The position numbers and the translations under genes were made by a program. The notes beneath the pieces are model-generated. The model was given only the letters and a program-made list of their open reading frames with translations, did not search any database and had not been told where the DNA came from. Positions 50,199-52,420 of a stretch of DNA of 64,000 bases are shown here, one piece after another; the first letter of the stretch is position 1, and each line of letters starts with the position of its first letter. The stretch comes from an uncultured Alphaproteobacteria bacterium (GTDB lineage Bacteria > Pseudomonadota > Alphaproteobacteria > Sphingomonadales > Sphingomonadaceae). Location: positions 62,001 through 126,000 of the forward strand of contig CAIZNH010000023.1 in assembly GCA_903934325.1 (NCBI GenBank), given 5' to 3'.

Positions 50199-50210
50199 GG
50201 TGTTTGTGTT

Positions 50211-50234
50211 ACGCTCGCCCATCCGGGCGAGCGT
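50211..50234 (+). terminator. Hairpin after the aldehyde dehydrogenase gene
   Basis: Perfect ACGCTCGCCC / GGGCGAGCGT stem with an ATCC loop, 12 nt after the stop, no T-run. Between here and 50333 other GC palindromes follow; nothing else is recognisable there. Confidence 0.55.
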
Positions 50235-50332
50235 CCTCGCTTGACGCGCAGCAAAGCTGCGCCCGCTGCGGGCGGGCGGTCGCCCTTGCGGGCCTGTGGC
50301 CCGATGGCGCCTCCCCTCACGGTCAGGCTCTT

Positions 50333-50743
50333 TCACCCCTCCTCCAGCAGCAGCAGGACGCAGGTCACTTCCAGCCGTTCCATCGCGCCGAAGCGGTGGT
50401 CGACCATGGCGATGGTGGCATCGGCGACCAGCTGGCCGGGGATCGCGAATTCGTGATCGGGCAGGCGCTCGATCAGGTCCTCGCCGCAGGCCACCGCATC
50501 GATACCGCAGAATTCCATCACTACGCAGTGGCGGGTACCGGAAAAGGTGATCGAGGCCCATGCGGTCTCGTCATGGCTGAGCAGGGTGCCCTTGCCCCCG
50601 GCGAGGCCGGCGAGCGCGGCGCGCACCCGGTCTGCCGTGGTGCGGCGCGGGCGGAAGGCGGCGGCGAGCGATTTGACCTCGAAATCATCGAGATCGGCAA
50701 AGGCGTGGGCGAAGGGATCGCGGTGGCTCTCGGTCAGCATCAT
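50333..50743 (-). CDS. Hypothetical protein of the S24-repressor locus
   Basis: 136 aa, no family recognised. MMLTESHRDPFAHAFADLDD opens it; middle AWASITFSGTRHCVVMEFCG; end AMERLEVTCVLLLLEEG. Arg/Ala-rich central helix (RRTTADRVRAALAGLAGG). ATG 50743 overlaps the upstream small gene's stop (ATGATG around TGA), with AAGGAG before it, so it is coupled to the HTH-like gene. No signal peptide or membrane helix. It could be a target or partner of the small DNA-binding-like protein. Confidence 0.7.
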   Translation of the reverse strand: MMLTESHRDPFAHAFADLDDFEVKSLAAAFRPRRTTADRVRAALAGLAGGKGTLLSHDETAWASITFSGTRHCVVMEFCGIDAVACGEDLIERLPDHEFAIPGQLVADATIAMVDHRFGAMERLEVTCVLLLLEEG

Positions 50744-50943
50744 ACCATCTCCTTCATCTGGGCATTGGCGCGGTCGGAATAGCCCTGCATCCATGCGCGG
50801 GTGCGCAGCTCGGTGTCGCGGCGGGGCGAGCGGCCCATGCGCAGATCGAGCACGAAGCGCGGATCATGGGCAGCGAGCCGCCCGAATTTGGTGGCGGGCA
50901 TGTCGTGTGTCCGCAGGAACGACTCGATGGTCCGAAGCAGCAT
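50740..50943 (-). CDS. Small helix-turn-helix-like protein
   Basis: 67 aa. SFLRTHDMPATKFGRLAAHD and FVLDLRMGRSPRRDTELRTR form a predicted HTH followed by a basic helix, similar to small XRE-like proteins of sphingomonads and plasmids; DNA binding is inferred. GGGAGG lies 7 nt upstream of ATG 50943. It diverges from the S24 repressor gene and shares the 123 nt intergenic region with its operators. Confidence 0.7.
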   Translation of the reverse strand: MLLRTIESFLRTHDMPATKFGRLAAHDPRFVLDLRMGRSPRRDTELRTRAWMQGYSDRANAQMKEMV

Positions 50944-51001
50944 GGTTTGACCTCCCTCTTGCGTGCTGACGGCGGGGCCGACACCGAACGAATCGCCCGA
51001 T

Positions 51002-51059
51002 GTTCCTGAAATGTTTCACTACATTTCCTACTTGTCTAGGAAAAATCCTACGTGTAGGA
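51002..51059. promoter_or_regulatory. Operator cluster between the small-gene pair and the S24 repressor
   Basis: Three elements: GTTC-N7-GTTT at 51002-51016 (close to the alphaproteobacterial LexA box GTTC-N7-GTTC, one mismatch); TCCTACTTGTCTAGGA at 51026-51041; and TCCTACGTGTAGGA at 51046-51059, a perfect palindrome. The two TCCTA...TAGGA sites are centred 19 bp apart and sit 7 nt before the repressor start. Confidence 0.7.
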
Positions 51060-51066
51060 TGTTTTC

Positions 51067-51744
51067 ATGCTTAATGACCCGCAAAACCCCGTCCAGAGCC
51101 TCGCCGGACCGCGCGCCAGACTGCTTGCCCTGTCGCAGGAGCGGGGGGTGAGTCTCGCCTCCCTGTCCGAGTTGCTGGGGCGCAATCCGACCTATCTCCA
51201 GCAATTCATTCGCAAAGGCTCGCCGCGCAAGCTGGAGGAGCAGGACCGCGCGACGCTCGCCCGCTTCCTTGGGGTGACGGAGGCAGAGCTGCGCGAGGCG
51301 CAGGATAATTCCTATGTAAAGGCCCCTAGGCGCGAAACCGGGGTATGGGTCGATGTGCCGCGGCTCGATCTTGGCGCGTCAGCCGGACCGGGAGCAGTGC
51401 CAGGGGGCGAGGGCGCCTTCGACACCTTCCGCTTCTCGCGCCGCTGGCTCGCCGAACAGGGGCTCGAAAGCGCGCAGCTTTCCGCGATCCGCGTGGAAGG
51501 AGATTCGATGGAGCCGCTCCTCAACGACGGCGACGAAATCCTCGTTGACCGATCCCCGCGGGCCTTCCGCGACGGCACCCACGTGGTGCGCCTCGGCGAC
51601 ACGTTGATGGTCAAGCGCGTCGCCAGCGCGGGGGCAGGGCGGATCGCGCTGCTCTCGCAGAACCTCGCCTACCCGCCGGTCGAGGTCTCGGCAGACGAGG
51701 TGGCGATCATCGGGCGGGTTGTGTGGAAGGGGGGGAGGATTTAA
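51067..51744 (+). CDS. XRE/S24-peptidase repressor (LexA/CI-like)
   Basis: 225 aa. N-terminal HTH (about 15-75, SLASLSELLGRNPTYLQQFI), then a C-terminal S24 peptidase with Ser147 in VEGDSMEPLL and Lys183 in LMVKRV, spaced 36 as in LexA (37). A possible Ala-Gly cleavage site is at 106-107 (GASAGPG). Such proteins self-cleave with RecA help and relieve repression. Palindromic operators lie just upstream of its own start, so autoregulation and joint control of the divergent small genes is likely. It is not the cell's typical LexA, which is usually encoded elsewhere. Confidence 0.88.
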   Translation: MLNDPQNPVQSLAGPRARLLALSQERGVSLASLSELLGRNPTYLQQFIRKGSPRKLEEQDRATLARFLGVTEAELREAQDNSYVKAPRRETGVWVDVPRLDLGASAGPGAVPGGEGAFDTFRFSRRWLAEQGLESAQLSAIRVEGDSMEPLLNDGDEILVDRSPRAFRDGTHVVRLGDTLMVKRVASAGAGRIALLSQNLAYPPVEVSADEVAIIGRVVWKGGRI

Positions 51745-51754
51745 GCCCGCTCTC

Positions 51755-52420
51755 ATGACGGACCAAACGACACTCCCCATGCGCGCCGCGATCATTCCGG
51801 TGACACCGCTGCAGCAGAACTGCTCGCTGATCTGGTGCACCAAGACCATGCGCGGCGCGCTGGTCGATCCCGGCGGGGATCTCGACAAGCTGAAAGAGGC
51901 TGTCGCCAAGGCGGGCGTGACGCTCGAGAAGCTGCTCGTCACCCACGGGCATCTCGACCATTGCGGGCAGACCGGGATGCTGGCCGACGAACTCGGCCTC
52001 CCCATCGAAGGCCCGCACGAGGATGACCGCTTCTGGATCGACCAATTGGACGATGACGGCCCGCGCTGGGGGATGGTCGCCAAGAGCTTCACGCCGACCC
52101 GTTGGCTCAAGCACGGCGACACGGTGACGGTGGGCGAACTCACCTTGGATGTGATCCACTGCCCCGGCCACACCCCCGGCCACGTGGTGTTCTACCACGC
52201 GCCCAGCCGCTTCGCGATTGTCGGCGACGTGCTGTTCCAGGGCTCGATCGGCCGCACCGACTTTCCGCGCGGCAATCATCAGGACCTGATCGATTCGATC
52301 ACCCAGCGCCTCTGGCCGCTTGGCGAGGACGTGATGTTCATCCCCGGCCACGGCCCCACCAGCACCTTCGGCCGCGAGCGCAAGACGAACGCTTTCGTCT
52401 CGGATTATGCCTTGTCCTGA
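51755..52420 (+). CDS. Metallo-beta-lactamase fold hydrolase (glyoxalase II-like)
   Basis: 221 aa. Zinc motif THGHLDHCGQ, CPGHTPGHVVF, GDVLFQGSIGRTDFPRGN and PGHGPTS are all present. Related to hydroxyacylglutathione hydrolase/persulfide dioxygenase folds; the exact thioester or sulfur substrate is unclear. ATG 51755 (MTDQTTLPMRAAIIP) is taken; ATG 51779 (MRAAIIP) is an alternative start. It lies 10 nt after the repressor, possibly only by proximity. Confidence 0.88.
   Translation: MTDQTTLPMRAAIIPVTPLQQNCSLIWCTKTMRGALVDPGGDLDKLKEAVAKAGVTLEKLLVTHGHLDHCGQTGMLADELGLPIEGPHEDDRFWIDQLDDDGPRWGMVAKSFTPTRWLKHGDTVTVGELTLDVIHCPGHTPGHVVFYHAPSRFAIVGDVLFQGSIGRTDFPRGNHQDLIDSITQRLWPLGEDVMFIPGHGPTSTFGRERKTNAFVSDYALS

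Follow-up and report, generated by a model that had tools for sequence, protein, structure and literature searches.

A repressor gene of the S24 family and two small genes facing it, here called H and P3, form a core chromosomal locus found throughout the Sphingomonadaceae, and all three genes evolve under purifying selection. The reading that we favour, with modest confidence, is that this S24/H-P3 locus is a host-domesticated, phage-derived damage switch that is doubly locked and whose product is an exapted tail-terminator protein. The locus was found in the window, a stretch of 64,000 nt from an uncultured alphaproteobacterium of this family, and was then compared with its counterparts in related genomes.

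Layout and spread of the locus

The three genes occupy positions 50333-51744 of the window. S24 (51067-51744, forward strand) encodes a repressor of 225 aa with the LexA/CI fold, while H (50740-50943, reverse strand; 67 aa) is the first gene of a divergent operon in which its stop overlaps P3 (50333-50743, reverse strand; 136 aa) by 4 nt (ATGA); a gap of 123 nt separates S24 from H-P3. The coordinates and features given in a first-pass annotation of this DNA, namely the three genes, the overlap, the palindromes and the LexA-type box discussed below, were all recovered correctly. No Rfam match was found in 50200-51800.

S24 matches Peptidase_S24 (PF00717; E = 1.5e-19; 70.2 bits against a cut-off of 23.3) and the phrog_4 transcriptional repressor family (1.6e-35), and its HTH is matched weakly (HTH_31, E = 0.005). 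The Ser-Lys dyad, Ser147 and Lys183, is conserved in 131/131 family sequences, and Ala106 and Gly107 of the cleavage motif are each present in 130 of the 131. Judged by domain, dyad and Ala-Gly motif, S24 has the make-up of a self-cleaving S24 repressor. It is not a LexA equivalog (TIGR00498, 25.9 bits vs a cut-off of 110.95); the genome's own LexA is a separate protein encoded on another contig (171.4). The closest phage matches of S24 are c repressors of the DMS3/MP22 type, at 36-37% identity, and in PADLOC its HTH region matches capH only (E = 0.0018).

In a family-level search, S24 was found in 221 of 237 good Sphingomonadaceae genomes. The P3 profile matches 205 of the same 237, an upper figure as the weakest matches might be other DUF3168 proteins, and it matches in 85/96 genera when all 250 genomes are counted; matches to P3 in public genomes place the organism with Erythrobacter/Porphyrobacter. 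Within the window's genus, S24, H and P3 are adjacent in nearly all of 60 genomes, and among 120 loci inspected directly, including those with S24 at 45-50% identity, the opposite-strand order is kept almost throughout. The dN/dS values are 0.18 for S24, about 0.18 for H and about 0.25 for P3. Rather than being absent or scattered in relatives, the small genes are syntenic with S24 across the family, which favours the locus and lends no support to a mobile or phage-style cassette.

Two genus genomes carry deletion scars at the locus: C-terminal S24 remnants are left in both (L105 and L128, in G044 and G045), together with a P3 remnant in G044. These genomes have lost much of the locus, which is therefore dispensable and not essential. 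Several genus genomes also hold, elsewhere, a paralogous S24+H pair lacking P3 (L101-L104, L130), with a LexA box and a TAGGA-N4-TCCTA-type site of its own.

The shared control region

When 111 unique intergenic regions were aligned, the stretch TCCTACTTGTCTAGGAAAAATCCT was found to be close to invariant. It holds palindrome 1 (TCCTA-N6-TAGGA, 51026-51041), which as TCCTACTTGTCTAGG is nearly invariant in the 111 loci, plus an inverted TAGGA-N4-TCCTA repeat centred between this palindrome and palindrome 2 (TCCTA-N4-TAGGA, 51046-51059), the latter being conserved less. The half-sites are thus TCCTA at 51026-51030, TAGGA at 51037-51041, TCCTA at 51046-51050 and TAGGA at 51055-51059, and the most conserved element takes in the central TAGGA-AAAA-TCCTA (51037-51050). 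The two palindromes previously described are present; however, this central element, which we regard as the core operator, had been divided between them. The control DNA stays near-invariant even where S24 identity falls to about 47%, and the operator core occurs in none of the shuffled intergenic regions.

The 10-base TAGGA-N4-TCCTA motif has a single perfect copy in the 2.83-Mb genome, at S24/H-P3, so that the locus appears to be a dedicated local switch. Across the genus, most occurrences of the motif fall at S24/H-P3 or at the S24+H paralog, a few being elsewhere, and S24 relatives in other families have it in their upstream DNA as well (TAGGAATATTCCTA). Its conservation backs the earlier proposal of an S24 repressor with putative operators of its own. 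Within the S24 coding sequence there is a one-mismatch operator, CAGGATAATTCCTA (51301-51314), which may be an auxiliary site or a chance occurrence. Insertions of the IS1595 family (PF12762, PF12760) lie between H and S24 in three loci (L053, L055 and L092, in G039, G031 and G038); they carry different passenger ORFs, share the target ATTTCCTA within palindrome 1 and separate H-P3 from the S24 operator.

One reading of the fixed DNA is a pair of back-to-back promoters with overlapping -35 elements (TTGTCT and TAGACA) and 17-nt spacing in each. The putative S24 promoter, TTGTCT-17-TAGGAT (51032-51060, forward strand), would start near the ATG and give a possibly leaderless transcript; the putative H-P3 promoter is TAGACA-17-AACATT (51010-51038, reverse strand). 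Both are read from conservation, and a consensus promoter scanner calls neither. Palindrome 1 overlaps both putative -35 regions; the putative S24 promoter has the core operator within its spacer and palindrome 2 overlapping its -10.

Over the putative -10 of H-P3 lies a LexA-type box, GTTC-N7-GTTT (51002-51016, forward strand), with one mismatch to GTTC-N7-GTTC. In 124 unique intergenic regions the box is perfect in 63 and has one mismatch in 22 (85/124 at 0-1 mismatch), and perfect boxes are observed in 25-60% across three divergence classes vs 0-1% of shuffles on average; its spacing from the operator is fixed. The near-consensus box that had been reported in the shared promoter region is hence a conserved feature, far above shuffles. 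At S24 identities of 52-66%, 15/32 loci have no box within one mismatch, and below 52% 14 of 20 have none, so that LexA control is not universal in the Sphingomonadaceae. At least four distant genera have a different S24-type palindrome at about the position of the box.

Bare GTTC-N7-GTTC counts are not enriched in the window's genome (55 vs 63 in a reversed control), and the box is thus credible through its place and conservation, not through its count. The same box stands upstream of recA, uvrA, a radical-SAM repair gene (rSAM_link_UDG), an ImuA-like gene and lexA of this genome, which makes a damage-inducible module the best reading of the conserved putative box; a toxin, which had been proposed along with it, gained no support.

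Downstream of the putative H-P3 start lies a GANTC site, the CcrM methylation motif (50990-50994), which the first-pass annotation had missed. GANTC is found in 122/124 intergenic regions vs 38-51% in shuffles, and its middle base is free (A47 T36 C19 G6).

P3 and H

P3 had been left as a protein of unknown family. Residues ~34-136 are predicted to adopt the tail-terminator (DUF3168-like) fold of phages and gene transfer agents (GTAs). The AlphaFold model (pLDDT 87.9) has as its best PDB match the RcGTA tail terminator Rcc01690 (6tba_4A; Z 10.8, 2.9 Å over 100 residues), with other tail and neck proteins ranking close behind; T5 p142 matches at Z 8.9, and among predicted viral structures the top matches are tail completion/DUF3168 proteins. 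By hhalign, the P3 profile matches outgroup DUF3168 (PF11367) proteins with a probability of 95.5% and an E-value of 1.5e-8, and in the order's other families the equivalent place beside S24 is taken by the genes for these proteins. P3 itself matches nothing in Pfam PF11367 at E<=1, its profile has no match among PDB sequences, and no DUF3168/PF11367 protein was found in the window's own genome. Profile comparison and predicted fold together indicate that P3 is homologous to DUF3168 tail terminators, and they support its reading as an exapted protein with that fold. Its origin can thus be traced to phage/GTA tail terminators, and the claim that the locus stands "without any other phage gene" does not hold, since P3 has such a fold.

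In other families of the order (L106-L125), S24 and the DUF3168 gene are separated by an unrecognised minus-strand gene, upstream of S24, that is marked by a KGW..xQL..ALRIF-like motif; membrane-protein and EAL-domain-like genes are its neighbours. Its assignment as a GafY/DUF6456-like gene was dropped, as Pfam gave no support.

The N-terminal ~52 aa of H are nearly invariant, and its predicted structure has four helices (pLDDT 81). H has no Pfam match at cut-off, and against PDB folds the best Foldseek E-value was 3.5 and a second comparison gave nothing above Z 3.9; its description as an HTH protein is accordingly unconfirmed. No phage relatives of H were found, and two distant plasmid matches were. 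H probably acts as a small regulator within the switch; its likeness to Cro is one of position only.

A proposed switch, its alternatives and known systems

Taking the locus as a host-domesticated switch, S24 would repress both itself and H-P3 through TAGGA-N4-TCCTA and the flanking half-sites, which cover the overlapping back-to-back promoters; we infer this binding because the control DNA is near-invariant and the operator single-copy. LexA would bind the second box, over the H-P3 promoter, and H-P3 would then be locked by two LexA-fold repressors. Against this second lock stands the mismatch in the window's own box. The residues expected for RecA-stimulated self-cleavage are intact in S24, and both locks should therefore be released by DNA damage; the GANTC site would probably add a replication or cell-cycle input through CcrM. 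P3 might attach to tail or neck components of phage particles that arise in the same damage response, acting as a decoy or regulator; the fold points to this as its most likely role, a view that we hold weakly. Gene order, conservation, the single genomic copy of the operator and the homology and predicted fold of P3 are observations, whereas the attachment of both repressors, their release on damage, the effect of methylation and what H and P3 do are inferred. The fullest version of the mechanism, a core SOS switch locked by LexA and S24 and read by CcrM, in which exapted P3 blocks or edits the tail assembly of damage-induced prophages, is a tentative and rather unlikely one.

An alternative that we consider unlikely is that S24 is the sphingomonad counterpart of RogA and that GTA production is under the control of the locus or draws on it, P3 then being a spare tail terminator. 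RogA of Caulobacter crescentus is an HTH+S24, LexA-like repressor of the GTA activators gafYZ, lacks key catalytic residues and has GGAA-N4-TTCC repeats at its target promoters (PMC9632790); the top fold match of P3, moreover, is the tail terminator of RcGTA. By plan, RogA is the closest described regulator, compared here by description and not by sequence: both proteins are alphaproteobacterial, of 213 (RogA) and 225 aa (S24), and S24 would share with RogA an HTH joined to an S24 domain, short inverted-repeat operators and very few genomic targets, its HTH being matched weakly. However, S24 has its dyad and its cleavage motif intact, stands opposite H-P3, and has GGA-N4-TCC, not GGAA-N4-TTCC, as its putative operator. 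The GTA marker PF09343 is present in 23/60 genus genomes and absent from the window's own; P3 occurs with it in 22 genus genomes and without it in 31 of the 53 that bear P3, an association that is not significant (Fisher p 0.23). GTA-positive genus genomes have their own g8 (22/23), and in five of them (G024, G026, G027, G050 and G059) no perfect operator lies away from S24 loci. GTA_TIM (PF13547) is absent from 100/100 relatives. With PF13547 absent and PF09343 patchy and unassociated with P3, dependence on GTAs was rejected as far as these markers reach.

Less probable still is a plain autoregulated S24 regulator with a divergent operon, in which both GANTC and the LexA box would be incidental. 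Loss or replacement of the box in part of the family would agree with it; the fixed spacing between box and operator, and the frequencies of box and GANTC far above shuffles, speak against it. More doubtful again is the proposal of the first-pass annotation that H and P3 are effectors under SOS control, a toxin pair or an abortive-infection pair: double repression and a damage-type box would suit a harmful product, but no toxin or defence family, PADLOC included, matches H or P3, P3 appears to be a domesticated tail-terminator-fold protein, and a core, slowly evolving distribution is unlike that of defence genes. A recent prophage remnant, to which the likeness of S24 to DMS3/MP22-type repressors and the tail fold of P3 might point, is highly improbable, as is a recent mobile cassette, given family-wide synteny, purifying selection and ordinary chromosomal flanks.

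For the domesticated damage switch, we found no description in the literature searched. A tail-assembly protein long kept outside particle gene clusters, under near-invariant control DNA, suggests a virion part with a cellular use. If the double lock is true, damage sensing in a whole family has, beside LexA, a second layer that is tied to DNA methylation; the locus is testable in ordinary sphingomonads.

Among known systems, Rcc01690 (g8 of RcGTA, of the DUF3168/PF11367 kind; PMC7296036) shares the predicted fold with P3, and other families of the order have a DUF3168 gene adjoining S24; P3 differs in lying outside GTA and phage clusters and under a putative S24 operator, in escaping the PF11367 search and in occurring beside a distinct g8 where a genome is GTA-positive. 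With the lambda-type CI/Cro and DMS3-type c switches the locus has in common a repressor divergent from a small gene and tandem operators and, for the latter type, the moderate identity of S24 to the c repressors; unlike them, it has no surrounding phage, its H has no detectable phage relative, and it carries an extra LexA box and GANTC. Finally, the locus resembles the alphaproteobacterial LexA/SOS regulon in its GTTC-N7-GTTC-type box, as at recA, uvrA and lexA here, but would extend it by a phage-derived product and by a second LexA-fold repressor that acts locally.
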